A DNA stretch of 64,000 nt from Candidatus Kuenenia stuttgartensis (lineage in GTDB: Bacteria; Planctomycetota; Planctomycetia; Planctomycetales; Planctomycetaceae): positions 1 to 64,000 of the forward strand of contig CAMDPK010000012.1 of assembly GCA_945904015.1 (NCBI GenBank), written 5' to 3'. Position numbers and translations under genes: made by a program. A model generated the notes under the pieces. It was given only the letters and a program-made list of their open reading frames with translations. It was not told the DNA's origin and did no database searches. Shown piece after piece: positions 26,283 to 50,447 of the stretch; the stretch's first letter is position 1; each line of letters starts with the position of its first letter.

Positions 26283-26380
26283 AGGTGAGCCGGAGGGCGT
26301 CAGCTCCCGGCCTTTTTGACATTTGAGATTTCAAATTTGAGATTTGAGACGTCCGGGGGCTGACGCCCTCCGGCTCGCCT
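26283..26380. repeat. Inverted repeat, AGCCGGAGGGCGTCAG theme
   Basis: Arms 26283-26312 and 26351-26380 are about 30 nt; the 38-base loop contains an AT-rich palindrome (GAGATTTCAAATTTGAGATTTGAG). The element lies between the Gfo/Idh/MocA stop and the SMP-30/LRR start. Confidence 0.85.
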
Positions 26381-26385
26381 GGACA

Positions 26386-28593: not shown

Positions 28594-28639
28594 TCCACGA
28601 TATCATCGCTCGCCGATCATTTCTGGGCGGGAGTCCTTC
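28594..28639 (+). promoter_or_regulatory. Conserved leader of kinase 1
   Basis: TCCACGATATCATCGCTCG (from 28594) matches the leader of kinase 2 in sequence and in its 33-base distance to the ATG. TATCAT (28601-28606) could be a -10 element; no convincing -35. GGGAG (28629-28633) is the Shine-Dalgarno sequence. Confidence 0.4.
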
Positions 28640-31600
28640 ATGCCGTTGACCGTCGAGCAATTCACTCAGCGATTGACTTCGTCCGGCGTGATGTCGGACG
28701 AGCAATTGCGAGAATCGCTCGCGTCACTGGCTCCTGACTCGGCGGCGCATGCGGACGGCGAGCAATTCGCTCGCGAGTTGGTCAAGCAGAAGCGACTGAC
28801 CAAGTTTCAGGCCGAGCAGCTTTGCGCCGGCAAAGGAAAATCGCTGACGCTCGGCAACTATGTCATCCTCGACAAGCTGGGCCAGGGCGGCATGGGGATG
28901 GTGCTCAAGGCCGAGCACAAGCGGATGAAACGAGTCGTCGCGCTGAAGGTGATCATGGGGTCCGCGATGAAATCGGCCGACGCGGTGAAGCGATTTCATC
29001 GCGAGGTCGAGGCGGTCGCGAAGTTGACTCACCCGAACATCGTCACGGCGTTCGATGCCGACGAGGCCAAGGGGACGCACTTCCTCGTCATGGAGTACGT
29101 CGAGGGGGACGACCTGTCGCAGTTGGTCAAGAAGCATGGACCGCTGTCGGTCGAGCAGGCGATCGAGTGCATCATTCAGGCGGCGCACGGGTTGGCTCAT
29201 GCGCACGCCGAACGTGTCATTCATCGCGACATCAAGCCGGCGAACTTGCTGCTCGACAAGCATGGGACGGTGAAGATTCTGGACATGGGGCTGGCTCGGC
29301 TGGAGAGCGGCTTGGCGGACGAGGCCGGGGTCGCGGGTGCGGGGCTGACGCAGACCGGCACGATCATGGGGACCGTCGATTACATGTCCCCGGAGCAGGC
29401 GGAGGACACTCGGCACGCCGATGCGCGAGCGGATATCTACAGCCTTGGTTGCTCGCTGTATTACTTGCTGACCGGGCACGTCGTGTACGCCGGCGAGACG
29501 ATGATGAAAAAGCTGCTGGCGCATCGCGAAGCAGCGCTGCCGTCGCTCGTGGCGGACGCTGCCAGCGTCCGAACCGACGCTAGCAGCGTCGGCCACGTTC
29601 TCGACTCGGTCTTCCACAAGATGATCGCCAAGCGGGCGGCGGATCGTTACCAGACGATGGGCGAGGTCATCGCGGACCTCGAACGCTGCCGCGCGGGCCA
29701 GTCGGTGACGGCGAATGTGGACGCGGCCAGCGGCGAATCGGGCAGCCTCAACGACCTGCAACGATTCCTGTTGCAGATCAGCGGTGGCGAGGGAAGTCAG
29801 GCGACGAGCGCGACCTCAGCGAGTCCGCGTGGGACTGCGGTGCTCCCGGAGAGCGGAACGGCCGAGACGATCCAGTTATCGGCGAACGGTGCCGCCACCG
29901 ATCCGCAGACGGAGCTGACGCTCGCGGGCCGCCAGCACGACGCGCGAGCGAGTGGTTTTTCGGCAATGACCACTCGCTGGCGCGTCGTGCTGGTGGCGAG
30001 CGTCGGCATCGTGCTGCTCGGAGCTTGGTGGATGTTTCGGACTCCGACCGGAACCGTGCGGATCGAGATCACCGACGATCAGATCGAAGTCACGCTGGGC
30101 AAGACCGGCCGGACGCTGCGCGGCAAGACGTCGGAAACGCTCAAGCTCCCGATCGGCGAGCATGTGTTGCACGTTCAGATCGGCGAGACGACGTTCGACA
30201 CGAACGAGCTTTCCGTCGCGAAAGGCGAATCGGTCCCAATCAAAGTCGAACGGGTCGGCCGCCGAGTTCGCGTGATGCAGGGAAACACATTGCTCGGCCA
30301 CAGAGAATTGCCCAAGTCCAAGACGGAGATCGCTGTGACGGAGCGCCATCCCTCGTCACAGAACCCCGACCGCCGCGCCGCCGAGTGGGTGCTGTCGATC
30401 GGCGGCACCATCAGCATCCAGGAATACGGTCAGGAACGGCCGATCGCGGCTGTCGGCGATCTGCCCCTTGGGGCGTTTGAACTCACGTTCGTGGCTGTGA
30501 ACGGTACCCCGCGGGTGACCGACGCCGGCATGGCGCACTTTAAGGATTGCAAAAACCTCACGGTCCTTCAATTGCTCGGTGATCAGGTGGGTGATGCGGG
30601 GTTAGCATACTTTAAGAATTGCAAGCACCTCACGGACCTTAATTTGTCCTGGACATCGGCAACCGATGCGGGGCTGGCCTACTTCCGGGATTGCAAGCAC
30701 CTCACGGCGCTAAAACTACAGAGCACGCCGGTGACCGATGCCGGCTTGGCCTACTTCAAGGATTGCAAGAACCTCACATCGCTGAACCTGTACGGCACGC
30801 AGGTGACCGATGCGGGACTGGCCCACTTCAAGGATTGCAAGAACCTCACACACCTTAATCTGATCAACACACAGGTGAGCGACATTGGGCTGGCCCACTT
30901 CAAGGATTGCAACAAGCTAACGAACCTTCATCTGCAAGCGACACCGATAGGCGATGCGGGGCTGGCCCACTTTCAGGGATGCAAGGATCTCACGGTCCTT
31001 GATCTGGGCGGAACAAAGGTGAGCGATGCAGGGCTGGCCCACTTCAAGGATTGCCAGAACCTCACGACACTGACCTTGGACACAACCCAAGTGAGCGATG
31101 CGGGGTTGGCCCACTTCAAGGATTGCAAGAACTTCACGAACCTGTATCTGGTCAACACGCAGACGACCGATGCCGGGCTGGCCCACTTCAAGGATTGCAA
31201 GAACCTCACGATTCTGTACCTGGACAACACACAGGTGACCGATGCCGGGCTGGCGCACTTGAAGGATTGCAAGAACCTCACGACCCTTCTATTAGTCGCG
31301 ACCCAGGTGAGTGATGTGAGTTTGGAACGTCTCGCCGACTTCTCGAAACTCAGTACGCTTCGGATCCCAAAGACGAAGGCCACCGAGGCTGGCGTGAAGA
31401 ACCTGTCGGTCGCGTTGCCGCGTTGCCAGATCGAATGGGACGGCGGCGTGATCGAGCCGCTCTCCGCCGATCCCGACCGCCGCGCCGCCGAGTGGGTGCT
31501 GTCGATCGGCGGCACCATCAGTATCCAGGAGAACGGTCAGGAACGCGCAGCCGGTGCTGTCAGCGACCTGCCCCAGGAGGCGTTTGAACTCACGCAGGTG

Positions 31601-32281
31601 CAATTGGGCTATATCCCAAAGGTGACTGACGCGGCGCTGGCCCACTTCAAGGATTGCAAGAACCTCACGACCCTTTATCTGACCGGAACAAAGGTGACCG
31701 ATGCGGGGCTGGCCCACTTCAAGGATTGCAAGAACCTCAACTTCCTTGACCTGTACGATACACAGGTGACCGACGCGGGGCTGGCCCACTTCCAGGACTG
31801 CAAGAACCTCACATACCTTAGTCTGAGCGGTCAAAAGATGAGTGATGCGGGGCTGACCCACTTCAAGGATTGCAAGAACTTCACGATACTTGGTCTGCAA
31901 CGTACCCAGGTGAGCGATGCGGGGCTGGCCCATTTCAAGGATTGCAAGAACCTCACGCTCCTCGACTTGAACGGTAGTGCCCAGGTCAGCGATGCGGGAC
32001 TGGTCCACTTCAAGCATTGCAATAATCTCGCGCGCCTTGAACTGCACAATACCCAGGTGGGCGATACGGGGCTGGCCCACTTCAAGGAGTGCAAGAACCT
32101 CGGGTTTCTTCGTCTGGATGCTACACAGGTGAGCGATGCGGGGCTGGTCGATCTCGCCGGCTGCCCGAAGCTCGTTTACTTGAACGTTAAGAACACCAAG
32201 GTGACCGAGGCTGGGGTGAAGAAGCTCAGAGCCGCGTTGCCGGAGTGCCAGATCGAATGGGACGGAATGCCGGGCAAGTGA
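28640..32281 (+). CDS. Ser/Thr protein kinase 1, membrane-anchored, with two LRR blocks
   Basis: 1213 aa. Residues 1-73 are the family N-terminal module (QFTQRLTSSGVMS, FARELVKQKRLTKFQAEQL). The kinase domain (about 74-340) has the GQGGMG loop, VALK Lys103, HRD Asp197 and DMG (not DFG) Asp215. A linker with an in-frame inverted repeat precedes one membrane helix (about 443-466), then a PEGA-like domain (about 468-560). Outside are two LRR blocks (about 617-934 and 987-1213), each led by an AAEWVLSIGG cap. The 24-residue units (LAHFKDCKNLTTL) are nearly identical at DNA level. Cytoplasmic kinase, outer LRR sensor; ligand unknown. Confidence 0.93.
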   Translation: MPLTVEQFTQRLTSSGVMSDEQLRESLASLAPDSAAHADGEQFARELVKQKRLTKFQAEQLCAGKGKSLTLGNYVILDKLGQGGMGMVLKAEHKRMKRVVALKVIMGSAMKSADAVKRFHREVEAVAKLTHPNIVTAFDADEAKGTHFLVMEYVEGDDLSQLVKKHGPLSVEQAIECIIQAAHGLAHAHAERVIHRDIKPANLLLDKHGTVKILDMGLARLESGLADEAGVAGAGLTQTGTIMGTVDYMSPEQAEDTRHADARADIYSLGCSLYYLLTGHVVYAGETMMKKLLAHREAALPSLVADAASVRTDASSVGHVLDSVFHKMIAKRAADRYQTMGEVIADLERCRAGQSVTANVDAASGESGSLNDLQRFLLQISGGEGSQATSATSASPRGTAVLPESGTAETIQLSANGAATDPQTELTLAGRQHDARASGFSAMTTRWRVVLVASVGIVLLGAWWMFRTPTGTVRIEITDDQIEVTLGKTGRTLRGKTSETLKLPIGEHVLHVQIGETTFDTNELSVAKGESVPIKVERVGRRVRVMQGNTLLGHRELPKSKTEIAVTERHPSSQNPDRRAAEWVLSIGGTISIQEYGQERPIAAVGDLPLGAFELTFVAVNGTPRVTDAGMAHFKDCKNLTVLQLLGDQVGDAGLAYFKNCKHLTDLNLSWTSATDAGLAYFRDCKHLTALKLQSTPVTDAGLAYFKDCKNLTSLNLYGTQVTDAGLAHFKDCKNLTHLNLINTQVSDIGLAHFKDCNKLTNLHLQATPIGDAGLAHFQGCKDLTVLDLGGTKVSDAGLAHFKDCQNLTTLTLDTTQVSDAGLAHFKDCKNFTNLYLVNTQTTDAGLAHFKDCKNLTILYLDNTQVTDAGLAHLKDCKNLTTLLLVATQVSDVSLERLADFSKLSTLRIPKTKATEAGVKNLSVALPRCQIEWDGGVIEPLSADPDRRAAEWVLSIGGTISIQENGQERAAGAVSDLPQEAFELTQVQLGYIPKVTDAALAHFKDCKNLTTLYLTGTKVTDAGLAHFKDCKNLNFLDLYDTQVTDAGLAHFQDCKNLTYLSLSGQKMSDAGLTHFKDCKNFTILGLQRTQVSDAGLAHFKDCKNLTLLDLNGSAQVSDAGLVHFKHCNNLARLELHNTQVGDTGLAHFKECKNLGFLRLDATQVSDAGLVDLAGCPKLVYLNVKNTKVTEAGVKKLRAALPECQIEWDGMPGK
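29549..29597. repeat. Inverted repeat inside the kinase 1 domain
   Basis: Arms 29549-29570 and 29576-29597 (GTGGCGGACGCTGCCAGCGTC theme). In frame it encodes VADAASVRTDASSVGHV, replacing the region that in kinases 3 and 4 reads as a short ordinary loop before the last kinase helices. Confidence 0.85.
29932..29993. repeat. Inverted repeat of the AGCACGACGCGCGAGCGAGT theme inside kinase 1
   Basis: 24-nt arms at 29932-29955 and 29970-29993 with 23 of 24 complementary. The same theme occurs in the intergenic repeats at 32307-32379 and 37245-37302. In frame it encodes RQHDARASGF and TTRWRVVLVA, the start of the membrane helix. Confidence 0.9.
30480..32240 (+). repeat. 72-bp tandem LRR-coding repeats in kinase 1
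   Basis: About 12 units (30520-31340) and about 8 units (31620-32200) of 72 bp, many sharing runs such as CACTTCAAGGATTGCAAGAA. The shared runs include synonymous positions, indicating recent unit duplication or gene conversion. Confidence 0.85.
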
Positions 32282-32306
32282 TCGCGGCCGCCATTCCCCC
32301 GCTTTT

Positions 32307-32379
32307 AGCACGACGCGCGAGCGAGTGGTTGCATTGGTCCGAACCCATTCGAGGCAACCACTCGCTCGCGCGTCGTGCT
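32307..32379. repeat. Perfect 24-nt inverted repeat, AGCACGACGCGCGAGCGAGT theme
   Basis: Arms 32307-32330 and 32356-32379 are fully complementary with a 25-base loop. Same theme as the copy inside kinase 1 and at 37245. It begins 25 bases after the kinase 1 stop. Confidence 0.9.
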
Positions 32380-32437
32380 CACTTTGGCGTGCTCGGCGCG
32401 GCTCTCCCGACCCCGCCGCTGGGCTGGACCGCAGGCC

Positions 32438-32572
32438 TGGCAGACGATGAAAAGAAAATGAGACGACATCGAAGCGAACACTCTCCACAAATCTGGCACA
32501 AGCCCTCACGGACAAACTCAAGGGCGAAGGCCGAGCGGTGTATCGCCGAGAACCGCCTGGAGAATGCACGAC
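32438..32572 (-). pseudogene. Truncated copy of the promoter and first codons of the RlmM-like gene
   Basis: This 135-bp segment aligns over its whole length with 50416-50551. On the minus strand its ATG at 32469 opens MSSHFLFIVCQA, against MSSHFLFVVCQV in the intact gene; codon differences are mostly synonymous or conservative (V to I, CTG to CTT, CAA to CAG). Beyond codon 11 the resemblance stops. It looks like the remnant of a paralogous gene start, not functional. Confidence 0.7.
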
Positions 32573-32616
32573 ACTGTGCTCGGTACGGCTGGTCAGTTTG
32601 TCAAATGAGGTGAGTC

Positions 32617-32695
32617 GTAGGGTGGGACCAGCACCGCGCCGGACCACCATTTCATGGCCATTTGGTGGGCCGGCGCGGCGCTGGTTCCACCCTAC
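32617..32695. repeat. Inverted repeat, GTAGGGTGGGACCAGC theme
   Basis: Arms 32617-32646 and about 32664-32695, imperfect (ACCAGCACCGCGCCGG and near complement). Tips again read GTAGGG and CCCTAC. Confidence 0.8.
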
Positions 32696-32854
32696 ATTTT
32701 TCGCAGACCGACGAATTCGCCAGCCGTGTGTGCTCGGTACGGCTGGTGAATCTGTGAAGTCTCGCGATTCTGCCGACCCTGAGATCTGATTCGCGATCCG
32801 CGAAGGTTTGCCAACTTCCGTGACGTGATTCCGCGTCGTGTTTTCTCGCGGCAG

Positions 32855-32900
32855 TCCACGATATTATCGCCTGCCAATCACTTCGGGGCTGGAGCTCTTC
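32855..32900 (+). promoter_or_regulatory. Conserved leader of kinase 2
   Basis: TCCACGATATTATCGCCTG (from 32855) matches the kinase 1 leader, again 33 bases from TATTAT (32862-32867) to the ATG. Confidence 0.4.
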
Positions 32901-35900
32901 ATGCCGTTGACGGTTGACCAATTCACTCAGCGATTGACCTCGTCGGGAGTGATGTCGGCGGATGATCTGCGGGATTGGATCGCGGCGGTGCCGATCGAGA
33001 AGCGGTCCAGTGACGGTGAGCAATTGGCTCGCGAGTTGGTCAAGCAAAGGCGGCTGACGGCGTGGCAGGCTCAGGCGATTTATCAGGGCAAGGGAGCGTC
33101 GCTGACGTTTGGCAACTATCTAATCCTCGACAAGCTGGGGCAGGGGGGCATGGGGATGGTGCTCAAGGCCGAGCATCAGCGGATGAAGCGCGTCGTCGCG
33201 CTCAAGGTGCTCTCGCCCGATGCGGTCAAGACGCCTGATGCCGTGAGGCGGTTCGAGCGGGAAGTGCAGGCGGCGGCGAAGCTCGAACATCCCAACATCG
33301 TTACCGCCTACGACGCTGACCGAGCGAACAACACGACGTTTCTCGTGATGCAGTTCGTCGATGGCGATGACTTGTCGGCGATCGTGAAGAAGTCGGGGCC
33401 GATGGCGGTGGATCGCGCGGTCGATTGTGTGCTGCAGGCGGCGCGCGGCTTGGAGTTCGCTCATCAGCAAGGGGTCATTCATCGAGACATCAAGCCGCAC
33501 AACTTGCTGCTGGGCAAAGACGGTGTGCTGAAGATTCTCGACATGGGGCTGGCTCGCATCGAAGACCCCACCGGCAGTTCGCACGAAGCGACGCTGACCG
33601 GGACCGGCGCGGTGATGGGGACCATCGACTACATGTCGCCGGAGCAGGCGCTCGACACGAAGACGGCGGATGCTCGCAGCGATATTTATTCGCTGGGCTG
33701 CACGCTGTTTTATCTGGTGACCGGAGGCGTGCCGTATCCGGCCGACACGGTGATGAAGCGGCTGCTGGCGCATCGCGAGACACCGATTCCGTCGTTGGTC
33801 GTGGCCGACGCTGCCAGCGTCGGAGCGGACGCTAGCAGCGTCCGCCACGCGGCGCTCGACGCTCTCTTCCGCAAGATGGTCGCGAAGAAGCCACAGGATC
33901 GGCAGCGGTCGATGACCGAGGTCATCGCAGAACTGCAACGCTGCCTGACCTCGCCTGTGACGGCTCCGATTCCGGTAGTCACACCGTCTGAGGACACGAA
34001 CTTCAGCGACTTCCTGGCGATGATTTCTCAGCCGGGCAACTCAGTCACGTCGGCGGCTTCGCAAGCGGTGACGAAGGTCACGAGCATGTTGCCACACTCG
34101 CGCGCGACATCGGCGGACGCGGCGACAGTGCAATATCGAGAGGGCGTGTCCGACACCGACCCACAGACTCTGTCGAGCGTGACCGAAGCCGAGGAACTGC
34201 GGCGAAGCGGCCGTCAGAAGTTGCGGGGCCGAAACGCGCTGTTGGTGAGTATCGGCGTCTTGCTGTTAGTGCTCGGAGTTTGGGGACTGTTTCGTACTCC
34301 GCAGGGAACCGTGCGTTTTGAGATCACTGACAAACTGATCGAAGTGACGGTCGGCGAAACCGGTCGCGTCGTGAAGGGCGTCACCGAAAAAGATGTCCGG
34401 CTGCCGCTGGGCCAGCATGTGTTGCGTATCCATCGAGACGACCTCGCGTTTGACACCGATCCGTTCGAGGTGACGAAGGGCGAGAACGTCCCGATCAAAG
34501 TCGAACGAGTCGGCCGCCGCGTGCGAGCCATGCAAGGCAACACGCTGCTCGGACACAAAGAATCGTCAAGGGCTGACGCCGTTGTGGGAAGCCCGCCGCC
34601 ACCCGCCAAGGCTCCGTTCAACACCAGGCAAGCTCGCGCGCATCAAGAGGCGTGGGCCAAGTCTCTCGGCGTGCCGGTCGAGCACACCAACAGCATCGGC
34701 ATGAAGTTCGTGCTCATCCCGCCGGGAGAGTTCCTGATGGGCAGTACGGCGGCCGAGATTGAAGCGGCACTCGCCGTCGCAGGCGGGGACGAGAACTGGA
34801 AGATCTACATCAACAGCGAAGCCCCGCAGCATAAAGTGATCCTCACGAAACCGGTCTACCTTGGCATCCATGAAGTCACTCAAGCCGAGTATGAAAAGGT
34901 GATGGGGCAGAATCCGTCCCACTTCGCTCCGCGGGGTGCTGGGAAAGAGGCCGTCGCCGGAATGGACACGACTCGACACCCGGTGGAGATGGTGACTTGG
35001 AACGATGTGGCGGAGTTCTGTACCAAGCTGAGCGAGCGAGAGAAGCTGAAGCCGTTCCAATTTGGACTTCGGGCTGGCGAAACCGTGCCGATCAAGGGGA
35101 TCGGCTACCGCTTGGCGACGGAGGCGGAATGGGAGTTTGCGTGTCGCGCAGGAACGACGGCGAAGTACTGGAGCGGCGACAAGGACGAAGACTTGGCGCG
35201 AGCCGGCTGGTTCGTTGGGAACTGGGGCGGTCGCACGCACGCGGTCGGAGAATTGATTGCGAATCCATTCGGGCTCTTCGACATTCACGGGAATGTCTAC
35301 GAGTGGGTGCAGGACGTGTGGGAGCCGATCCACTACGGACAGTTTCAAGGCAATCCCGCACTCGACCCAAGCGGCCCAATTAACGGACCATCTTCCGCTG
35401 GTTCCCTGCGCGTGGTCCGGGGCGGTCGGGGCTTCCCCGCGTACTACTGCCATGCGTCGAATCGCAACGCCGCTGACCCGGTGACCCGTTTCAACCTCCT
35501 CGGTTTTCGGGTGTCGCTGGTGGTAGATGCCGTGCGTCAGGCGGTGAAGTTGACCGGGACGGCGGTGCCCAAGCCGGGGGCGACCGACCCCGACCGCCGC
35601 GCGGCGACGTACATTCTTTCCGTCGGTGGGAGGGTGAAGATCAATGAGATCGAGCAGGACTACACCGACGTTCGTGAGCTGCCGAAATCACGCTTCCGGC
35701 TGACGTCCGTCTGGGTCAATGATTCCCAACAAATGACCGACGCGGGCTTGGCGGCGTGTGAAGGCTGCCAGCATTTGATCCAACTGTCATTGTTCCATGT
35801 CGCCGTGGGTGAAGCCGGACTCAAATCATTTCGTGAGTGTCGGAACCTCAAATTTCTGCAATTGATCGACACGCAAGTCACCGATGAGGCGTTGGCTCAC

Positions 35901-37208
35901 TTCAAGAATTGTCGGCAACTGACCACAGTGGAGTTGTCAAAATACGAACTGACCGATGCCGGCATTGCCACGTTCAAAGATTGCAAAAACTTGGAAACAC
36001 TCTCGGTCGTTGCGACACAATTCAGCGACAACGGCCTGAGCCATTTCAAAGAGTGCAAAGAACTCCAGAGATTCGTGATTCACATTGCTCCGATGGGCGA
36101 CGCCGGCCTCCTCCATTTGCAGAGCTTTCCGAAGCTCACTCAGATTTCCTTGTCAAAGGTTTCGGTGACCAACGCTGGCCTTGCGGCTCTACAAAAGATC
36201 CCTCAATTGACTTCGCTCAGTCTCTCTGAGCTACCCCTGGACGATGCCGCCGTCGAGCCTCTCAAAAAGCTGACCAAGCTCACCGATCTCAGGTTGATCC
36301 AAACCAAGCTGACCTCTGCTGGCATCGCCGAACTGAAGAAGGCATTGCCGAATTGCAAGATCGAATGGGACGACGCGAAGCCAGCGGACGGCGACCCCGT
36401 GACCAACGACGACCCCGACCGGCGCGCGGCGACATACATTCTGTCCGTCGGCGGGAAGGTGGGGATCAATGAGATTCCGCAGGAGTACACCGACGTTCGC
36501 GAGTTGCCGAAGTCACGCTTCCGGCTGACGTCGATCTCGGTGAGTGACTGTCCGAAAATCAGCGACGCGGGACTGGCCGCGTGTCGGGGCTGCCAGCATC
36601 TGACGCAGCTTACGATGGTCGCCCCCATCGGCAATGCGGGGTTGGAGCCATTTCGCGAATGTAAAAACCTGAAGGTTCTGGTGCTCTATTTCACGAAAGT
36701 GACGGACGCGGGACTGGCCTACTTCAGCGGCTGTCGTGATCTCACAAATCTGGTCATCCTGGAGGGAAGTCTGGTCACGGACCTCGGCCTGGCGAACTTC
36801 AAGGACTGCACGAAATTGGAATCCCTCGGACTGTCTCGTCTACAGATGACCGAGAAGGGGATCGGCCATTTCCGAGATTGCCAGAACCTGCGAACTTTCA
36901 GTGTTAGCAATTCCTCGTTGGGTGACGCAGCGTTCGCGCAACTGAAGAGCTTCCCGAAGTTAGATCAGATCAGTTTCGCCAGCGACCAAGTGACCAATGC
37001 TGGTCTCGCCACTCTTCCGATTCTGAAAGAGTTGACGTTGCTGAGCCTCTCCGGAACGCAATTCGATGACGCCGGTGTCGAGCATTTCAAAAAACTGACC
37101 AAGCTCACTAGCCTGCATTTGGTCCAAAACAAGCTGACATCGGCAGGCCTCGCCGAACTGAGGAAGGCGCTGCCGGACTGCAAGATCGAGACGGACGTGA
37201 AGCCATAA
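32901..37208 (+). CDS. Ser/Thr protein kinase 2 with FGE-sulfatase-like and two LRR domains
   Basis: 1435 aa, the largest gene here. N-terminal module 1-73, kinase about 74-340 (GQGGMG loop, HRD Asp196, DMG), one membrane helix (about 443-465), PEGA-like domain, then a formylglycine-generating-enzyme-like domain (about 597-873: GIGYRLATEAEWEFACRAG, NPFGLFDIHGNVYEWVQD, RVVRGGRGFPAYYC), and two LRR blocks (about 934-1163 and 1214-1433), each led by an AATYILSVGG cap. The FGE-like domain has a cysteine in YYCHAS but lacks the full pair of active FGE, so it is probably a binding module. Kinase 1 is its nearest relative by leader and N-terminal sequence. Confidence 0.92.
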   Translation: MPLTVDQFTQRLTSSGVMSADDLRDWIAAVPIEKRSSDGEQLARELVKQRRLTAWQAQAIYQGKGASLTFGNYLILDKLGQGGMGMVLKAEHQRMKRVVALKVLSPDAVKTPDAVRRFEREVQAAAKLEHPNIVTAYDADRANNTTFLVMQFVDGDDLSAIVKKSGPMAVDRAVDCVLQAARGLEFAHQQGVIHRDIKPHNLLLGKDGVLKILDMGLARIEDPTGSSHEATLTGTGAVMGTIDYMSPEQALDTKTADARSDIYSLGCTLFYLVTGGVPYPADTVMKRLLAHRETPIPSLVVADAASVGADASSVRHAALDALFRKMVAKKPQDRQRSMTEVIAELQRCLTSPVTAPIPVVTPSEDTNFSDFLAMISQPGNSVTSAASQAVTKVTSMLPHSRATSADAATVQYREGVSDTDPQTLSSVTEAEELRRSGRQKLRGRNALLVSIGVLLLVLGVWGLFRTPQGTVRFEITDKLIEVTVGETGRVVKGVTEKDVRLPLGQHVLRIHRDDLAFDTDPFEVTKGENVPIKVERVGRRVRAMQGNTLLGHKESSRADAVVGSPPPPAKAPFNTRQARAHQEAWAKSLGVPVEHTNSIGMKFVLIPPGEFLMGSTAAEIEAALAVAGGDENWKIYINSEAPQHKVILTKPVYLGIHEVTQAEYEKVMGQNPSHFAPRGAGKEAVAGMDTTRHPVEMVTWNDVAEFCTKLSEREKLKPFQFGLRAGETVPIKGIGYRLATEAEWEFACRAGTTAKYWSGDKDEDLARAGWFVGNWGGRTHAVGELIANPFGLFDIHGNVYEWVQDVWEPIHYGQFQGNPALDPSGPINGPSSAGSLRVVRGGRGFPAYYCHASNRNAADPVTRFNLLGFRVSLVVDAVRQAVKLTGTAVPKPGATDPDRRAATYILSVGGRVKINEIEQDYTDVRELPKSRFRLTSVWVNDSQQMTDAGLAACEGCQHLIQLSLFHVAVGEAGLKSFRECRNLKFLQLIDTQVTDEALAHFKNCRQLTTVELSKYELTDAGIATFKDCKNLETLSVVATQFSDNGLSHFKECKELQRFVIHIAPMGDAGLLHLQSFPKLTQISLSKVSVTNAGLAALQKIPQLTSLSLSELPLDDAAVEPLKKLTKLTDLRLIQTKLTSAGIAELKKALPNCKIEWDDAKPADGDPVTNDDPDRRAATYILSVGGKVGINEIPQEYTDVRELPKSRFRLTSISVSDCPKISDAGLAACRGCQHLTQLTMVAPIGNAGLEPFRECKNLKVLVLYFTKVTDAGLAYFSGCRDLTNLVILEGSLVTDLGLANFKDCTKLESLGLSRLQMTEKGIGHFRDCQNLRTFSVSNSSLGDAAFAQLKSFPKLDQISFASDQVTNAGLATLPILKELTLLSLSGTQFDDAGVEHFKKLTKLTSLHLVQNKLTSAGLAELRKALPDCKIETDVKP
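33800..33849. repeat. Inverted repeat inside the kinase 2 domain
   Basis: Arms 33800-33821 and 33828-33849, same theme as in kinase 1 at the homologous position, encoding VADAASVGADASSVRHA in frame. Confidence 0.85.
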
Positions 37209-37244
37209 AGCAAATGGTTCGCAACAATCTCTTGATGTCACACC

Positions 37245-37302
37245 AGCACGACGCGCCAGCGAGTGATTTTTCATGAACAACCACTCGCTGGCGCGTCGTG
37301 CT
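37245..37302. repeat. Inverted repeat, AGCACGACGCGCCAGCGAGTG theme
   Basis: 21-nt perfect arms (37245-37265 and 37282-37302) between kinases 2 and 3; same theme as 29932 and 32307. The remaining 160 bp before kinase 3 shows nothing else. Confidence 0.88.
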
Positions 37303-37463
37303 AGAGTCCCGTGAGTCAAGGAAGTGATCCTGGCCTTGTTCCTCGACGAATTCAGACTCTTGAAATGAGCGTCCCGAAGTGACTCTGAAATCGAAGGCGG
37401 CCTTTTGATAAGCTCGGCACCGTGGCTGAACCGTGGAATCCAACACGCCCGACAATTCACATC

Positions 37464-39704
37464 ATGCCTCTCTCACGTGACGAATTCACTCAGCAACTGA
37501 CGGCCAGCGGACTGCTGGACGCGGCTTCCGTCGCGGCAAGCTTTTCGTGCCTGCCGCCCGACAAACAGCCACAGGACGGCGAAGCGTTGGCTCGTGAACT
37601 GGTCATGCAAAAGAAGCTGACCAAGTTTCAGGCGGATCAGATCTTCGCTGGCAAAGGGCCGTCGCTGGTGCTGGGGAATTATGTGATTCTCGGCAAGCTT
37701 GGGCAGGGGGGCATGGGAGTCGTTTACAAGGCCAAGCATCGGCGGATGGATCGCATCGTGGCCTTGAAAGTCTTGTCGCCGAGGATCGCGGGGCGTCCGG
37801 AATTGACTCAGCGGTTCGAGCGTGAAGTGCAGGCGGCAGCGAAGTTGACGCATCCGAACATCGTCAAGGCGTTGGACGCGGAACTGGACGGCGCGCGGCG
37901 GTTCCTGGTGATGGAGTACGTTGAAGGAGCCGACTTGCTGGCGTTGGTGCGGCGCTGTGGCAAGCTGCCAGTTCGTTTGGTGATCGACTTCATGCGGCAG
38001 GCCGCGCTGGGACTGGACTACGCGCACCATCAGGGGATCGTGCATCGCGACATCAAGCCATCGAACTTGCTGCGCGATCGGACGGGGACGATCAAGATTC
38101 TGGATCTCGGCCTGGCGCGGATGGCGGTGGCGGACGGAGCGGCGGAACTCACTTCGACGGGAGCGGCGATCGGCACGGTCGATTACATGGCTCCCGAACA
38201 AGCGGCCGACTCACGGCATGCGGACGCTCGTGCCGACATCTACAGCTTGGGGATCACGCTCTGGTTTCTGCTGACCGCTCGATTGGCCTACGAGGGAGAC
38301 TCGGCGATGGCCAAGCTGCTGGCTCACAGCGAGTCGCCGATTCCGTCACTGCTCAACGCGCGGCCGGAGGTGCCTCCCGAACTGGAGCGCATCTTTCAGA
38401 AGATGGTGGCCAAGCAACCGGATCAGCGGTACTCGTCGATGGCCGAGGTCGCCGCTGACTTGGAGCGCTGCCTGCCCTTAGTTCTGGTGACGGCGGATGA
38501 GCCGGATGTTCTCTCGGCTGTCTTCGATGAGTCGCCGACGGAGACGGGTGATTCGACCGTGGCCTACCAATTTCCAGCCGCCGACAAAGAGACGATGTCG
38601 CACATCTCGACCAAGAGTTTGTGGGAACAAGTCGGTGGCGATGCGAACCGTCTTCAAGGCAACGGGCAACGGCGACTCAAGTGGGGAATAGCCGCCTTGG
38701 CGCTGACGGTCGGAGGAATCGCCATTGTTTGGCAGGCCGATCCGTTCGGGCGCAACCCCCGCGAAGAGAGCAACCCGCCAGCTAAACAAGCCGCGAACAA
38801 TCCAACAGTCGGAAACACAGAGGCCGGGACAAAGCCTGATGAGCCGGTCATGAAGAGCACGAAGGATGTCGCCGTCGCTTCACCGACACCCACCGAGCAG
38901 AAAACTGTGCCGACTCCGCCTGTTGTCAAAGTCGAACCTCCGCGCGACACGGCCGAGCATGCACGGCAGCGTGTGGCCGAACTCAACACGATCTTGGAAG
39001 CGCAGCCGCAAGACATTCGCGCCTTGCAAGAACGCAACAAGTGGAACCGACAGCTTGGTCAGTGGCGCGAGGCGGCGGCGGATTTGGAGTTGCTTGCCGA
39101 TCTCGCCGAGAAGCGGTCGATCTTGCGGATGCAGGTGGCGTACATCGCGGCGCTCGGCGGCGACCTCGAATGCTATCGCCGCTCCTGCCGCGCGATGCTC
39201 GACCAGTTCGGCGATTCGGACAACTTGGAAGACTTGGAACGAGTCTGCAAAGCTCCGCTACTCATTGAGGGCGAATTCAAAATCGCTGACCTGCCGTTGG
39301 AGCGGTTTGAGAAAATGATCAAGCCGGACGAACCGGACAAAGGCCCGACCTACTGGGCCTGCACCACGCGAGCGTACGTCGCCAGCCGCGCGCGGCAACC
39401 GGCCGAAGCGCTCGACTGGCTGGCGAAGCGACCAATCGGCGAATATGCGATGCATCTCTACGGCTACCAGCAGTTGGTCAAAGCGCAGGCGTTGCATCAA
39501 CTCGGACGCGGCGAAGAGGCTCGTGAGGCGTTCGACACGGCGGTCTCGATGATGCCGGCCGAGCTGTTGCAACTGCTCGATGGCCCGAACGACTCAGATC
39601 GGCTCATCCTCGAATCCTCGACGCACGGTGACTGGCTGATCCTCGCCCTCTTGAAGCGACAAACCGAAGCGGTGCTGAAAAGTCCGCCCGCCAAACCACA
39701 ATAG
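37464..39704 (+). CDS. Ser/Thr protein kinase 3 with a helical (TPR-like) outer domain
   Basis: 746 aa from ATG 37464 ([12 protein letters not shown]). N-terminal module about 1-70; kinase about 71-335 with GQGGMG loop, VALK lysine, HRDIKPSN and DLG in place of DFG; lacks the in-frame inverted repeat present in kinases 1 and 2. One membrane helix (about 406-425), a Pro/Thr-rich stalk (about 430-490), then an alpha-helical region (about 495-740) with TPR-like pairs ([41 protein letters not shown]). No PEGA-like domain. Probably anchors an outer protein-interaction domain. Confidence 0.92.
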
Positions 39705-39728
39705 TTCGGATTGTTCATCCCGCTGTTG

Positions 39729-39946
39729 ATCCCGGAGGGATGCCAGCCATTAGCCGGGGGTTGAGTCCGCTACGGCGGACGATACCCCCGGTTGAGTTCG
39801 CCAGTGTTTCGCATCCCGGAGGGATGCCAGCCACGTCAAGTTCTTGCGGGCAGATTCCGACGCTGGCATCCCTCCGGGATGCAAATTCAATCGTGTTCTC
39901 CGACCTGCGCTCAACCCCCGGCTAATGGCTACGATCCCTCCGGGAT
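39729..39946. repeat. Doubly nested inverted repeat between kinases 3 and 4
   Basis: Outer 37-nt arms (39729-39765 and 39910-39946, GATGCCAGCCATTAGCCGGG theme, imperfect) enclose inner 21-nt arms (39811-39831 and 39862-39882, GCATCCCGGAGGGATGCCAG theme). It fills most of the gap between the two genes. Confidence 0.85.
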
Positions 39947-39999
39947 AAACCACAACAGGCTCACCGCCGATGACGATGGTCCCTCAAGGAGAAATCTCA

Positions 40000-42084
40000 A
40001 TGGGCCTGTCGGTGGATCAGTTTCTTGAGCGGCTCAATTCGTCGGGGCTGCTTGTCGTGGACGAAGTGCGGAAGGTGCTCGCGTCGTTTCCGATTGAGAA
40101 CCGGCCAAACAGTGGCGAGGACTTGGCTCGCGTGTTGGTCGAACGGAAAGTGCTCACCGAATTTCAGGCACATGCTGTTCTCGATCCGCACGGACAGCGG
40201 TTGGGACTCGGTCAGTATGTGATTCTCGACAAGATCGGCCAGGGGGGCATGGGGTCGGTCTTCAAAGCGCTGCATCGGCACATGCGACGTGAGGTCGCGC
40301 TCAAGGTGCTGCACGCTGATCTCGCCGAGTCCCCTGATGCTCTGGAACGGTTTTGGCGCGAGATGCGAGCCGGTGGAAAGCTGAACCATCCGCACATTGT
40401 TCCGACTCTCGACGCCGATCAAGTCGGCGACACGATGTTCTTGGTGATGGAGTACGTTCCGGGAACGAACCTTGCGTTGCTGGTCGGACAGAATGGCCCG
40501 CTGCCAATCGAGCAGGCTCTGCGGTATGCGGCTCATGCGGCGGAGGGCTTGGCTCACGCGCACGATCAAGGAGTCATTCACCGCGACATCAAGCCCAGCA
40601 ACCTGCTGTGCGACGAACGCGGCAATGTGCGTGTGTTGGACTTGGGCTTGGCCCGCTTCGTCGCCGATGGGCACTCGCAGCAGACACAATTGACCGGAAC
40701 TGGTGAATTGCTGGGGACTGTGGACTACATGGCTCCCGAACAGGCGCTGAGCACTCGGAAGGCGGATGCTCGTTCCGACATCTACAGCCTCGGATGCACG
40801 TTGGCGTACTTGTTGACCGGCCAGCCACCTTTTTCCGGCGAATCTGTGTTGAAGCGTTTGATGGCTCATCGCGACACGCCGGTCCCATCGCTGTGCGACA
40901 TGCGTCATGACGTGCCCGATGCGGTCAATCAGATCTTCCAGAAGATGGTCGCCAAGCAGCCGGCCGATCGCTACCAGTCGATGCGCGAGTTGCTTGCCGA
41001 TCTCGAACCGCTGGTCGGTTCGAGCCACCCTCGTTCGAGATGGGTGAAGCGCGGCGTGTTGGCGGTTGTGGCGGCCAGCGTGTTGGTCGCCGGGGTGATG
41101 TTCGCTCGACATCGCGGCGTGGACGAACCGGAGAAACTGGACGAGCCGTTCAAGATCGTTCAGCCCGTTGTGCCGCCATCGGTGGCGATCGCTCCATTCG
41201 ATGGCCCGCAGGCAGAGACGCATCAAGCCGCATGGTCCAAGTCCCTCAACCAGCCGGTGGAAACCACGAACGGCATCGGCATGAAACTGCGACTGATCCC
41301 GCCGGGCGAATTTCAGCAAGGGGCGAGCGAGCAGGAGGTCGAAGAATTCTCAAACCTCGAGGGCCGCTCGCTCGCGACCGACGGTCCGCAACATCGAGTC
41401 AGACTGACTCAGCCGTTCTACATCGGCGTTTCGGAAGTGACGCAGGCTGAGTATCAAACCGTCATCGGCAGCAATCCGTCAATGTTCTCGCCGACCGGCG
41501 AGTTTGCGGCGCGCGTCGCCGACAGCGAGACAACACAACTTCCGGTCGAAAACGTGACATGGTTCGATGCGGTCGAGTTCTGCAACGCGCTGAGCCTGCG
41601 CGAGAAACTGACAACCTGCTACGAGCGACTCGACGATCAGGTGACGATCGTTGCCGGCACCGGCTATCGCTTGCCGACCGAAGCGGAATGGGAATTCGCG
41701 TGCCGCGCGGGGACGGAATCGCCGTGGTCGTTCGGCAAGCAGGACGCAGCGTTCGAGCAGTTTGCCTGGGCCGCGACCAACAGCGAATTCCACAGTCGTC
41801 CCGTGGGCCAACTCGCGCCGAATCCATTCCAGCTCCGCGACCTGCACGGCAACCTGTGGGAATGGTGCCAAGATGCTTTTGATCCGCGCTACTACGAATC
41901 GCTCACCGAGCCAATCACCGTCGATCCCACCGGCCCGGCACCGGCCAGCGTTCGCTGCATGCGCGGTGGCGTGTGGGACAACTCCATTCGACTCTGTCGT
42001 TCCGCCCACCGCGGCGCGAACCAGCCGACCGCTCGCAATGCCAGCATCGGATTCCGCGTCGTGCGGACGATCCCTCGGCCGTAG
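40000..42084 (+). CDS. Ser/Thr protein kinase 4 with an FGE-sulfatase-like outer domain
   Basis: 694 aa. The ATG at 40000 has AAGGAG eight bases upstream; an upstream ATG at 39970 is less likely. N-terminal module (VDQFLERLNSSGLLVVDEV), kinase with [18 protein letters not shown] and DLG, one membrane helix (about 348-368), then an FGE/SUMF1-like domain (about 415-692: GTGYRLPTEAEWEFACRAG, NPFQLRDLHGNLWEWCQDA, RCMRGGVWDNSIRLCRSAHRG). The first of the two copper-binding cysteines of true FGEs is replaced, the second (LCRSAHR) is present, so catalysis is doubtful. Confidence 0.92.
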   Translation: MGLSVDQFLERLNSSGLLVVDEVRKVLASFPIENRPNSGEDLARVLVERKVLTEFQAHAVLDPHGQRLGLGQYVILDKIGQGGMGSVFKALHRHMRREVALKVLHADLAESPDALERFWREMRAGGKLNHPHIVPTLDADQVGDTMFLVMEYVPGTNLALLVGQNGPLPIEQALRYAAHAAEGLAHAHDQGVIHRDIKPSNLLCDERGNVRVLDLGLARFVADGHSQQTQLTGTGELLGTVDYMAPEQALSTRKADARSDIYSLGCTLAYLLTGQPPFSGESVLKRLMAHRDTPVPSLCDMRHDVPDAVNQIFQKMVAKQPADRYQSMRELLADLEPLVGSSHPRSRWVKRGVLAVVAASVLVAGVMFARHRGVDEPEKLDEPFKIVQPVVPPSVAIAPFDGPQAETHQAAWSKSLNQPVETTNGIGMKLRLIPPGEFQQGASEQEVEEFSNLEGRSLATDGPQHRVRLTQPFYIGVSEVTQAEYQTVIGSNPSMFSPTGEFAARVADSETTQLPVENVTWFDAVEFCNALSLREKLTTCYERLDDQVTIVAGTGYRLPTEAEWEFACRAGTESPWSFGKQDAAFEQFAWAATNSEFHSRPVGQLAPNPFQLRDLHGNLWEWCQDAFDPRYYESLTEPITVDPTGPAPASVRCMRGGVWDNSIRLCRSAHRGANQPTARNASIGFRVVRTIPRP

Positions 42085-42088
42085 CCAT

Positions 42089-42142
42089 CCGCCTTCGGCG
42101 GACCAGAGCGTGGGTTCTCGCCACCTGCCGCCCACGCTCTGG
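42089..42142. repeat. Hairpins after kinase 4
   Basis: A perfect CCGCCTTCGGCGG hairpin (42089-42101) then CCAGAGCGTGGG/CCCACGCTCTGG arms (42103-42114, 42131-42142). The kinase 4 TAG lies immediately before, at 42082-42084. Confidence 0.75.
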
Positions 42143-42232
42143 CGAGGCGTGGTGACGTTGCCGCCCCGACAAACGAGATGACATTCATTGTCGATTCGAT
42201 ACGATCACGTCCCATCGCTTCTGGAACCTCGC

Positions 42233-44476
42233 ATGTCTTTGTCGTTCGACCAATTCACCAGCCATCTCACAGACAGTGGGTTAATCTCCGTTGACGAGGT
42301 GCGGGCCTTTGTCGAGGGACAGCCGGCCGACGCACGCCCCACCGATGGCGAGTCGTTGGCGAAGGCTCTGGTCAAAGCCAAAAAGCTGACCAAGTTTCAG
42401 GCGCAACAGCTTTACGACGGTGAAGGGAAGTCGCTGACGCTCGGCAACTATGTCATCCTCGACAAGCTGGGGCAGGGGGGCATGGGGGTGGTGCTGAAGG
42501 CTTGGCATCGTCGGATGGAACGCATCGTGGCGTTGAAAGTGATCGCGCCCTTGGTCGTCCAAAACCAAACAGCGCTCCAGCGGTTCCAGCGAGAAGTCGT
42601 GGCGGCGGCGAAGCTCAGCCATCCCAATGTGGTCGCGGCTTACGATGCCGACGAGTCCAATGGGACTCACTTTCTGGTGATGGAATATGTCGAAGGGACG
42701 GACCTGGCTCAGCACGTCAAAGAGAATGGCCCGCTGCCGGCGGAGCTGGCGATCGGTTGCATCGTGCAGGCGGCGCGAGGTCTGGCATTCGCTCACGAGC
42801 AGGGTGTGGTGCATCGCGATATCAAGCCGCACAACTTGCTGCTCGATCCGAAGGGGACCGTCAAGATTCTGGATATGGGTCTGGCTCGGCTGGAAGGGAC
42901 CGTTGGCGGAAGTGCGGAACATGCGGCCTTGACCAACTCCGGAGCCATGATGGGGACCGTGGATTACATGTCTCCCGAACAGGCGATGGACGCCAAGCAC
43001 GCGGACGCACGCAGTGACATCTACAGCTTGGGCTGCACGCTGTTCTTCTTGATGACTGGCCGAGCCACCTTTGTCGCCGACACGATGATGAAACGGCTGA
43101 CGGCTCATCAGAACACCCCGGCACCGTCGCTGGAACTAGAAGTCTCGACGGCCAAGCCAACGGGGACAGGTAGTCGAAGTTCGTCGCTGTCCTCGCTGCC
43201 TAGTCAACTCCCGGCGCTCAATGTGGCCTTTCAAAGAATGGTCGCCAAAAAACCGGAGGATCGGTTTCAGTCGATGGCCGAAGTAATCGTGGCTCTGGAG
43301 CAGTGCCGATCCGGCCTCGCCGCGACCATCGACTTCCCGGGCAAGTCCGATTCCAGTGGCCCCGCGTTGCAGAGTTTTCTGAAAGAGATCAAAGATAGCG
43401 GCTCGGTATCCGCTCGCACCGCAGAGGCCAACTCGCGGCCGACAGCCGTCCTGTCGAGCGCGAGCGTTGAACCTCAGGAAGCGACCATCCTCGATTCGCA
43501 GGCGTCGGGCCACGCCAGTGCGCAGGCACAACAGACAATCACAACGCCAGCCGGCAGTCCGTCCGGCCGCGACGGGAATCAGAACCGCAGCCGACGTCTT
43601 TGGGTGACGGCAACCATCGTCGGCGTGTTGTTGCTGTCGTCTCTCGCGGTCTTTATGAAGAACAACCAGGGCACGCCGAACGACCCCAAAACAGTGGCCG
43701 CGAACAAGGGCTCCGATCACGGTGTGAAAGACGAAGCCGAGAAGGATGTCGCCGTCAAAGCCGACGCTGCCGCAGCCGGTCGCTCGCCCCCAGCCGTAAC
43801 ACCTCCAGATGTGGACCGCGCCGTCGCCGAATGGGCGCGGACTTTGGGCTGTCGGATCGCGGTCGAGTTTTCTCCCGATGGGGGCGGGCATCCAATCGCG
43901 GCCGATGCCGAATTGCCGGCCGCTCCGTTTCGGCTGACCTCCATGACATTCTTTGGAGCCAAGGCAGAGCGACAGGGCGATCAACTGATCGATCGGCTGG
44001 ATGGCGTGCGGCTGAAGATTCTGCAATTTGTCGAAGTGCCGATCACGAACGCGGGCATCGAACGGTTGTCTTCGTTTGCCAATCTTTCGGAGTTGAAAGA
44101 GTTGTCTCTGCGCGGTGCTCGGATCGACGACGACTGCGTGAAACATTTCGCCAAGTTTCCGGAGCTGGACTGGGTGAGCCTTGAGGGCGCTCCCATCACG
44201 GATGCGTGCTTTCCCCAGTTCAAGAATCTCACGTTGCTCAACTTGGCGCGGACGCGCATCACCGACGACGGCTTGCGGCACTTCAAGGATTATCCGCGTC
44301 TGATCGTGCTCAATCTGTCACAGACTTCGATCTCGGACGCCGGCTTGAAACATCTGACGGGACTGTCGCGGCTTCAGGAACTCGTCATCGATCGCACAAA
44401 GGTCACAATCGAAGGGATTCGGGAACTGCGGATCGCTCTGCCGAAATGCAACGTCGCGACCGATCTCGACAAGTAG
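42233..44476 (+). CDS. Ser/Thr protein kinase 5 with LRR outer domain
   Basis: 747 aa from ATG 42233 (MSLSFDQFTSHLTDSGLIS). Kinase with GQGGMG, VALK, HRDIKPHN and DMG; one membrane helix (about 457-475); a cap (about 528-560, AVAEWARTLGCRIAVEF) and about seven LRR units (about 570-745; LNLSQTSISDAGLKHLTGL) ending in the LRIALPKCNVA terminus shared with kinases 1 and 2. No in-frame inverted repeat is seen. Probably a cell-envelope sensor; ligand unknown. Confidence 0.92.
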   Translation: MSLSFDQFTSHLTDSGLISVDEVRAFVEGQPADARPTDGESLAKALVKAKKLTKFQAQQLYDGEGKSLTLGNYVILDKLGQGGMGVVLKAWHRRMERIVALKVIAPLVVQNQTALQRFQREVVAAAKLSHPNVVAAYDADESNGTHFLVMEYVEGTDLAQHVKENGPLPAELAIGCIVQAARGLAFAHEQGVVHRDIKPHNLLLDPKGTVKILDMGLARLEGTVGGSAEHAALTNSGAMMGTVDYMSPEQAMDAKHADARSDIYSLGCTLFFLMTGRATFVADTMMKRLTAHQNTPAPSLELEVSTAKPTGTGSRSSSLSSLPSQLPALNVAFQRMVAKKPEDRFQSMAEVIVALEQCRSGLAATIDFPGKSDSSGPALQSFLKEIKDSGSVSARTAEANSRPTAVLSSASVEPQEATILDSQASGHASAQAQQTITTPAGSPSGRDGNQNRSRRLWVTATIVGVLLLSSLAVFMKNNQGTPNDPKTVAANKGSDHGVKDEAEKDVAVKADAAAAGRSPPAVTPPDVDRAVAEWARTLGCRIAVEFSPDGGGHPIAADAELPAAPFRLTSMTFFGAKAERQGDQLIDRLDGVRLKILQFVEVPITNAGIERLSSFANLSELKELSLRGARIDDDCVKHFAKFPELDWVSLEGAPITDACFPQFKNLTLLNLARTRITDDGLRHFKDYPRLIVLNLSQTSISDAGLKHLTGLSRLQELVIDRTKVTIEGIRELRIALPKCNVATDLDK

Positions 44477-49346: not shown

Positions 49347-50447
49347 TCAATCCGCCGTGTCGCTCCGCGGTTTGACGAGATCGGTTGCGACAACGCACAC
49401 CTCCTGGCGGTTGAACGCCAGTTGCCGAGCACGCACGCGGCGATAGCCCCACGATCGGATTCGTTTGTGAAACAACGGCAGCTCGGCGGCCAAGGCCAGG
49501 TCGGTCAGCTTGAGCGTCAGCAACAAACCTTCGATCCGTACTTCTGGTTGAGTCACGATCGCCTCGACCGTGTCGAGCGTGTATTTCGGAGCGACGTTCG
49601 CATCCATCGCCAGCCAGCGAAAAGTTTGAAAGTCGTTCCGTTCGACTTTCTTCGCTCGTGATCGGAGGTGCGTGAAGTTTGGATTGGCCAGCAGCAACGG
49701 GTCCATTTCGGCAGGGTCGATGCCGGTCACGAAGCAACCGCGGTCTAACAACGCTTGGCACGAGCCGCCCGGAGAACTCCCGATCTCGACAAACCGATCA
49801 CCCGGCTGAATCGGCAATTCGGACCACAGCAATGACTCGACAATCTTCAAGTACGCTCGCGAGATCATGTTCTCTGGCGACTCCACATCCGGGACACCTC
49901 CTGGCCAGCGAGTCTCGACGGTGTTGGCTCGATGCCAACCGAACCACCATTCGTCCGGTTCGACGATGATGCAATCCAAAACTCGGTCGTCCACCTGCGC
50001 GTCTTCATTCAGCGGCAGTGACCACGGGGTTCCCACAGTCGGCTGATGTTCCAGGATCAGCTCGCCAATCCCCTCGGCCAGAGGTGTGATTCCCGGTTCG
50101 AAGTCAGATTCTCCCGGCACGAAGCGGTCGCGCTGCCAGACATGCAGATGTTTGAACTGAGCCAGCACGTCGGCCGGATAACGCTCGGCGAACGGCTTCC
50201 AGAATTCGCGAGCCAACTGCTGTCCATCGGTCCCGACCGCTTTTCCCAGCGAGAACCCCCATGTCCGAGCGAACGCGCAGTTCAACTCAAACTTGCGATC
50301 GCGAGCGACCTCATCAGGAATTCGAAATGTGACAAACCCCGGCCGCGAAAACGAAAACCGAAAGCTCGGATGCTTTCGGGAGACCTCGTTTTTTACCGTT
50401 GCTTCGGAACCAACTTGGCAGACAACGAACAGAAAATGAGACGACAT
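49347..50447 (-). CDS. RlmM-like (FtsJ-fold) rRNA 2'-O-methyltransferase
   Basis: 366 aa from ATG 50447. The N-terminal THUMP-like part opens MSSHFLFVVCQVGSEATVK, typical of RlmM-type enzymes. The C-terminal methyltransferase domain has FVEIGSSPGGSCQALLDRG (about 216-234, SAM-binding) and GIDPAEMDP, then LAMDANVAP (about 275) and LLLTLKLTD (Lys, about 308). RlmM methylates C2498 of 23S rRNA; target identity is inferred. Its promoter and first codons exist as a fragment at 32438-32572. No nearby operon partner. Confidence 0.82.
   Translation of the reverse strand: MSSHFLFVVCQVGSEATVKNEVSRKHPSFRFSFSRPGFVTFRIPDEVARDRKFELNCAFARTWGFSLGKAVGTDGQQLAREFWKPFAERYPADVLAQFKHLHVWQRDRFVPGESDFEPGITPLAEGIGELILEHQPTVGTPWSLPLNEDAQVDDRVLDCIIVEPDEWWFGWHRANTVETRWPGGVPDVESPENMISRAYLKIVESLLWSELPIQPGDRFVEIGSSPGGSCQALLDRGCFVTGIDPAEMDPLLLANPNFTHLRSRAKKVERNDFQTFRWLAMDANVAPKYTLDTVEAIVTQPEVRIEGLLLTLKLTDLALAAELPLFHKRIRSWGYRRVRARQLAFNRQEVCVVATDLVKPRSDTAD

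Follow-up and report, generated by a model that had tools for sequence, protein, structure and literature searches.

Five predicted receptor-type serine/threonine (Ser/Thr) kinase genes, here called K1 through K5, lie in a row on the + strand at positions 28640-44476 of the window, by which we mean the whole 64,000-nucleotide stretch analyzed (C12:1-64000, GenBank contig CAMDPK010000012.1). The stretch belongs to a 7.43 Mb draft genome in 286 contigs that is filed under Candidatus Kuenenia stuttgartensis. Each open reading frame (ORF) matches PF00069 at an E-value of 9.1e-49 or better, and the catalytic K, HRD and DxG residues of this core are intact in all five, as expected of receptor-type Ser/Thr kinases of Planctomycetota. 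The motifs GQGGMG, VALK, HRDIKP and D[ML]G are found in 5 of 5 kinases. Every core is preceded by a 66-residue N-terminal module (NTM) that has no Pfam match, and one strong membrane-helix peak, judged by hydropathy only and accompanied by weaker peaks inside domains, lies between the core and an accessory part. These PF00069, hydropathy and motif checks bear out an earlier note on this DNA, which had described five consecutive same-strand, single-helix kinases with a common N-terminal module and common motifs. The topology would place the accessory domains on the periplasmic side. Starts were set at the likely ATGs 28640, 32901, 37464, 40000 and 42233.

The outer parts of the five kinases, as assigned with Pfam, differ. 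K1 (28640..32281) carries LRR in two cassettes, whereas K2 (32901..37208) combines an FGE-like domain with two LRR cassettes, LRRa (35604..36371) and LRRb (36406..37208); LRRa is 59% identical to LRRb and is read as an older internal copy. The outer part of K3 (37464..39704) is weakly TPR-like, that of K4 (40000..42084, with ATG 39970 as another possible start) is an FGE-like domain that lacks the FGE cysteine pair, and K5 (42233..44476) has a single LRR cassette. The earlier label of TPR-like for K3 stands as a weak resemblance, but the matches fall below Pfam cut-offs. Similarly, the segment that had been called PEGA in K2 exists, and is present in K1 as well, but this juxtamembrane segment, which follows the helix in K1, K2 and kinases of relatives, yields no Pfam PEGA hit at E<=0.001. 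K1 and K2 also share DNA ahead of their coding regions: the K1 leader and first codons (28594..28650, + strand, 57 nt) are 84% identical to the K2 stretch at 32855-32911.

The examined loci of the genome yielded 77 kinase-bearing ORFs, fewer than the 93 kinase match places, a number in which some genes count twice because they matched in two parts. The set excludes the match places C100, C116, C14:10756-11670, C261, C76, C28 and C45:45797 (<=71.9 bits). With a profile built from K1 through K5, eight kinases of the genome stand out by cores of 434-506 bits and NTMs of at least 75 bits, the next core scoring 340. These eight comprise the five array members and one kinase each on C104, C175 and C25. 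Since all five fall in this single NTM subfamily, they are not unrelated imports, a finding that the earlier note had named as one that would undo its proposal. Having 5 of the 8 closest-subfamily kinases as neighbours has a chance of ~5e-12 under random gene order, or ~2.5e-6 for any 5 of 80 kinases, if 6000 genes are assumed (a figure that was not counted).

Pairwise core identity within the array is 56-68%, so that the earlier description of the cores as near-identical was too strong. A core tree was prepared from 48 cores of this genome and seven same-genus relatives (scores >340 bits with >200 profile positions; partial cores and L232, a second copy of the contig of L008, were omitted). 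In this tree, K3 and K4 each join orthologues in relatives G010 and G006, K5 and K1 each join one in G002, and K2 joins one in G007. Forcing K1 through K5 into one clade costs 878 log-likelihood units and is rejected by the approximately unbiased (AU) test at p=2.9e-10, and 5 of 5 array kinases have a closer core in a sister genome. Because of these two results, the array does not consist of fresh tandem copies, and a tandem family in the sense of local duplicates is not supported; rather, comparison of the sequences indicates a gathering of old paralogues, despite the leader DNA shared by K1 and K2. The groups for AU testing were chosen after the trees had been seen, and the K2-G004 tail match described below was noticed before any tree.

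A tail-less NTM kinase of 475-544 amino acids was seen in six genomes of the genus, one in each and including the source genome (L019, L167, L215, L217, L224, L225). Its neighbours are conserved in G002, G004 and G010, its clade is sister to K2/G007, and it may be a stable, ancestor-like member of the subfamily.

The clearest case of an outer part paired with different cores involves K2 and a kinase gene in the array contig of relative G004 (G004:C36). Per 50 residues, the two proteins are 50-80% identical in the NTM and kinase, 24-60% in the helix and juxtamembrane region and 10-28% across K2 residues 601-1200. Identity then rises to 68-90% in the last LRR cassette (56% in the final 9 residues). 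At the DNA level this corresponds to an 804-nt tract of 88.7% identity with edges at 36406 and the stop codon at 37208, which is the LRRb cassette (+ strand) that we read as exchanged. Past 37208, intergenic identity drops to 40-49% in 90-column blocks. A 42-nt intergenic island between K2 and K3 (window 37274-37315), 90% identical to G004 amid diverged DNA, is a possible regulatory element.

Core and cassette give conflicting relationships. K2 and its nearest core relative in G007 are 91% identical in the core and 70% in the cassette, whereas K2 and the G004 kinase, which belongs to another core clade, are 69% identical in the core and 83% in the cassette. The core data reject a {K2,G004} grouping (AU p=1.7e-6) and a single group of the four LRRb cassette bearers (p 4e-7). 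From the tail side, {K2,G007} is weakly rejected (p=0.04) and {G004,G001} is rejected (p=0.0075). The other two bearers show each arrangement a second time. G007 has a K2-type core with LRRb, in two ORFs of one frame parted by a stop and, at the DNA level, without the FGE and LRRa portions of K2; G001 has the other core type with LRRb, in two overlapping ORFs of different frames. Neither pairing of core and LRRb therefore rests on a single assembly, even though both second witnesses are interrupted genes. This incongruence between cores and tails supports the earlier note's view of a shared core with swapped outer domains.

The synonymous distance (dS) between the K2 and G004 cassettes is 0.199, compared with 0.352-0.942 (median 0.724) for six reciprocal-best gene pairs of the same two genomes. 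Since the cassette value lies below all six controls, the exchange probably took place after the two species had split, although codon bias could also explain the low value.

Similar mismatches are found among other kinases. Among the 338 kinase pairs whose outer parts align over 100 residues or more (110 rows, two of which are second halves of interrupted genes paired with first-half cores), outer identity exceeds core identity in 34, and does so by at least 10 points in 12. In comparisons with kinases outside the subfamily, for example, the FGE-like domain of K2 shares 62% identity with its counterpart in a distant C113 kinase of the same genome (cores 41%) and 73% with the one in a G007 kinase (cores 46%), and the LRR part of K1 shares 58% over 655 residues with that of a C180 kinase (cores 43%). 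For the K3 NTM, the closest relatives sit on cores of another clade, in the genes found after the LRRb cassette of G004 (79%) and of G001 (82%); its identity to the NTM of the K3 orthologue of G006 is 76%. The K3 orthologue of G010 carries a different NTM, with a K1-like gene as its best-scoring match (65%). NTMs, too, thus come loose from cores, in one case with an NTM paired with different cores in sister genomes. As judged by such comparisons, exchange of outer parts between kinase genes is supported, and it probably occurs even between species.

Several points weigh against this reading. The tail tree joins the four LRRb cassettes in a fork whose order it does not resolve, and support from the tail side comes from identity, dS and the weak AU test. 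The dS control comprises six gene pairs only, and low dS can stem from codon bias: K5, the C175 kinase and K3 sit at the low end in comparisons with G002 and G010 (0.40-0.46), although these values all exceed that of the cassette and the sole kinase pair with G004 is the highest of the controls. The cassette itself has a dN/dS (nonsynonymous to synonymous ratio) of ~0.48, which indicates weak constraint. The K2-G004 exchange is the only one resolved to its edges, and older events underlie the FGE and LRR mismatches that involve distant subfamilies. The orthologue groups of K3, K4, K5 and the WD40 kinase retain their tails across genomes, which speaks against constant exchange. Finally, the genomes are fragmented drafts, and assembly may account for where arrays end and for the interrupted genes.

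The surroundings of the array also vary among relatives. Upstream lies a non-kinase gene for an SGL (SMP-30/gluconolactonase-like) plus LRR protein (26344..28545, + strand), which is matched in 10 of 11 same-genus relatives, the exception being G003. Downstream is an FtsJ-like methyltransferase gene (49347..50477, - strand) that has matches in 10 of 11 of these relatives, with none in G007, and whose orthologues adjoin NTM-kinase arrays in G002:C109, G010:C31 and G006:C309. In a second G006 copy (G006:C344) the methyltransferase is ~3.5 kb from a K3 orthologue, and in G004:C145 it is ~13 kb from one tail-less NTM kinase. No NTM kinases were found beside it in the examined stretches of G003, G005, G009, G011, G001 and G008, some of which reach contig edges. 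The G003 genome (99% complete) is collinear with the window from 4.3 to 20.9 kb, has one short matching segment at about 21.9 kb and another at about 23.1 kb, and then jumps to the methyltransferase at 49.4 kb; therefore, the array block is absent from G003. There, ~26 kb of the window (23230-49381) is replaced by ~1.7 kb (L168, G003:C84), making the variable block wider than the array.

In G005 an NTM that resembles that of K2 (84% over 88 residues) but has no kinase core comes after the SGL+LRR gene, and in G006:C344 an NTM kinase lies ~2.4 kb after that gene, with one ORF between. No kinase matching the NTM-subfamily profile follows the SGL+LRR gene within the 10-17 kb examined in G002, G010 and G011, and for this reason the two flanks do not bracket arrays in every genome. 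The earlier note had also held that orthologues scattered singly in relatives would speak against its proposal. One such case exists, since the K3 orthologue of G006:C344 has no other strong NTM kinase within ~21 kb (stretch C344:22000-56000), but the G010 and G002 orthologues sit in arrays. The five-gene array of G010 consists, in order, of an interrupted kinase, an FGE/lectin/LRR kinase, the K3 orthologue, the K4 orthologue and a K1-like kinase with WD40. The three-gene array of G002 begins with the K5 orthologue and continues with two K1-like genes, of which one carries LRR and the other LamG plus WD40. In the array contig of G004 (L004, G004:C36), the reciprocal-best partners of the C104 kinase (L017) and of the gene downstream of it are adjacent and lie beside a K5 remnant; K5-like genes have therefore occupied a second locus. 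Array kinases of relatives at L008, L009, L010 and L213 contain in-frame stops or frame changes, reflecting decay or assembly error.

Across the phylum, the NTM profile matches 13 of 149 sampled genomes, source genome included, a lower bound because the profile leans to this genus. An array in a single-contig genome of another family (L179, G015:C1) has four tandem kinases, three of which carry the NTM and the same kind of WD40 tail; the fourth has no NTM match and no tail match at E<=1e-10. Arrays thus also exist without outer diversity.

Within contig C12 (80,205 bases) there is no FHA or PP2C_2 match, in keeping with the earlier note's remark that no such partner is encoded nearby; the genome-wide search covered no phosphatase family besides PP2C_2. 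Elsewhere in the genome, on contigs other than C12, there are 19 FHA and 5 PP2C_2 matches. A partnership with an ECF sigma factor was rejected, with no sigma-factor match in 20 scanned neighbouring ORFs. Promoter-like and terminator-like sites are at or under shuffled expectation.

The closest solved structures of the core are PknB/Stk1, and the activation segment LTx[ST]GxxxGTxDYMxPEQ, which is of PknB type in all five kinases, aligns with that of PknB. For pairs with orthologues, dN/dS of the core is ~0.14 (K3-G010), 0.09 (K4-G010) and 0.29 (K5-G002), and that of the outer part is ~0.27, 0.11 and 0.38, respectively. These values point to purifying selection on both parts of K3, K4 and K5. 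The best PDB match of the K4 FGE-like domain is Treponema denticola variable protein 1 (2y3c), a protein of lectin-type fold. In an alignment of K4 to 6muj, neither of the two cysteines that we take to form the FGE active-site pair is present, and a catalytic FGE was rejected on this ground. Because of the missing pair and the nearness to the Treponema protein, the K4 domain is likely to serve in binding rather than catalysis. The NTM appears in an AlphaFold model as a module of 4-5 helices (mean pLDDT 82.5) with no confident relative in the PDB (best match E 0.86); a death-domain identity was not adopted, its hits being at E about 5.

Taken together, we consider it likely that K1 through K5 are Ser/Thr kinases of receptor type, that they belong to a planctomycetal NTM subfamily, and that the variable block in which they reside gains, loses and recombines its members. 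Outer cassettes (LRR, FGE-like and TPR-like here; LamG, lectin and WD40 in relatives) would bind proteins or glycans outside the membrane. PknB is thought to transmit its signal through clustering and trans-phosphorylation of activation loops, and ligand-driven clustering may similarly lead the cores of these kinases to trans-phosphorylate one another's activation loops, with the NTM tuning or docking the core. Where genes resemble each other in DNA, recombination would fit new outer parts onto an existing signalling core. The convergence of signals on common substrates and the cross-phosphorylation that the earlier note raised would be further possibilities, neither favoured nor disfavoured by the sequences. 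A tentative and, on present evidence, doubtful extension is that the arrays form a recombination platform, in which homologous recombination moves outer cassettes between kinase genes and species by way of the DNA similarity of NTMs, cores and cassette caps. If so, the genus would rebuild its surface-receptor repertoire much like eukaryotic receptor clusters, with the signalling side fixed.

Other explanations of the locus fare less well. Recent tandem duplication in this lineage, with the outer parts then diverging by point changes, would account for the adjacency and shared strand, the K1/K2 leader DNA and the internal LRR duplication in K2, and the leader leaves room for local events. It is nevertheless improbable, and for the five as a whole it is refuted by the AU rejection of their clade; moreover, each gene has its closer core in another genome, and the outer parts differ by fold rather than by point change. 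A neutral process of birth and death, with arrays as by-products of recombination in a variable block and no selection for receptor diversity, fits the missing block in G003, the remnants of a K2-like NTM in G005 and of K5 in G004, and the several interrupted genes in relatives. However, dN/dS well below 1 in the core and outer part of the K3, K4 and K5 orthologues makes this account rather unlikely.

The outer domains might instead be adhesion or scaffold parts, with the kinases as membrane-anchored enzymes, given that LRR, LamG, lectin, WD40 and FGE-like domains are general binding folds. The coupling of each through a single helix to a core that retains its regulation motifs fits receptors better, and we regard the adhesion or scaffold account as unlikely. 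An anti-phage function of the PD-T4-6 or MADS type was considered since PADLOC PD-T4-6 models match 5 of 5 kinases and two of the models seem to span the NTM as well, but these models appear to match PknB-like kinases in general. In addition, the kinases score 146-176 with NCBIfam MAD6, whose cut-off is 460, and among four neighbour proteins checked, only the methyltransferase matched mad2, weakly (E 1e-5). The matches look generic, and such a role, which we judge highly improbable, was rejected.

Known systems resemble the array in part. Like the PknB/Stk1 PASTA receptor kinases, K1 through K5 have the same core fold and motifs and a helix after the core; unlike them, they show no PASTA among their Pfam matches, score 277-314 bits against the NF033483 cut-off of 450, and bear the extra NTM. 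Plant LRR receptor-like kinases combine a shared inner kinase with diverse outer parts and form tandem clusters with turnover. They may work in a comparable way, a likeness of function rather than shown homology, and in K1 through K5 the outer part is C-terminal. Targets of diversity-generating retroelements (DGRs) include proteins with an FGE/lectin-type fold, which recalls the best PDB match of K4. However, no DGR template repeat was found in the 2.8 and 3.5 kb compared around the two reverse-transcriptase matches of the genome, and retroelement diversification was rejected, as the K2 and K4 FGE ends have no template-like match there.

Among published surveys, Odelgard et al. 2024 (PMC11032199) report that Planctomycetota Ser/Thr kinases mostly have a single helix and a cytoplasmic core, with TPR, WD40, FGE (the third commonest) or DUF1080 mostly periplasmic. 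The single helix and the weakly TPR-like and FGE-like accessory domains of K1 through K5 agree with this. Their study describes lineage-specific expansion and similar architectures that do not fall in supported clades, in a tree that is itself not well resolved; it could go no further than to suggest several independent origins of similar architectures. It is phylum-wide, the text available presents neither mixed-tail gene arrays nor cassette edges, and its main text does not use the words 'leucine', 'LRR', 'synteny', 'adjacent' or 'operon'. As cited there, Perez et al. 2008 read neighbouring duplicate Ser/Thr kinases as tandem duplication; those kinases, too, are immediate neighbours, but adjacent kinases of the present array are not each other's nearest relatives. 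Single Ser/Thr kinases of Chlamydiae and Pseudomonas bear the same accessory domains, FGE-like (NirV/DUF323) or LRR (BMC Genomics 2005, PMC1262709), with no arrays or exchange described in the accessible portion of that paper. The T. immobilis proteome paper (PMC8567305), in the portion at hand, mentions paralogization and domain shuffling in general terms. We found no literature on arrays with exchanged outer cassettes, in a search whose coverage left out most subscription journals. Planctomycetal kinases with such accessory domains are therefore already known, and it is cassette exchange at this resolution that we did not find described. Because both arrangements of one junction are seen in sister genomes, and the dS of the cassette lies below that of six control genes, the route by which planctomycete kinases come to new outer domains becomes testable.

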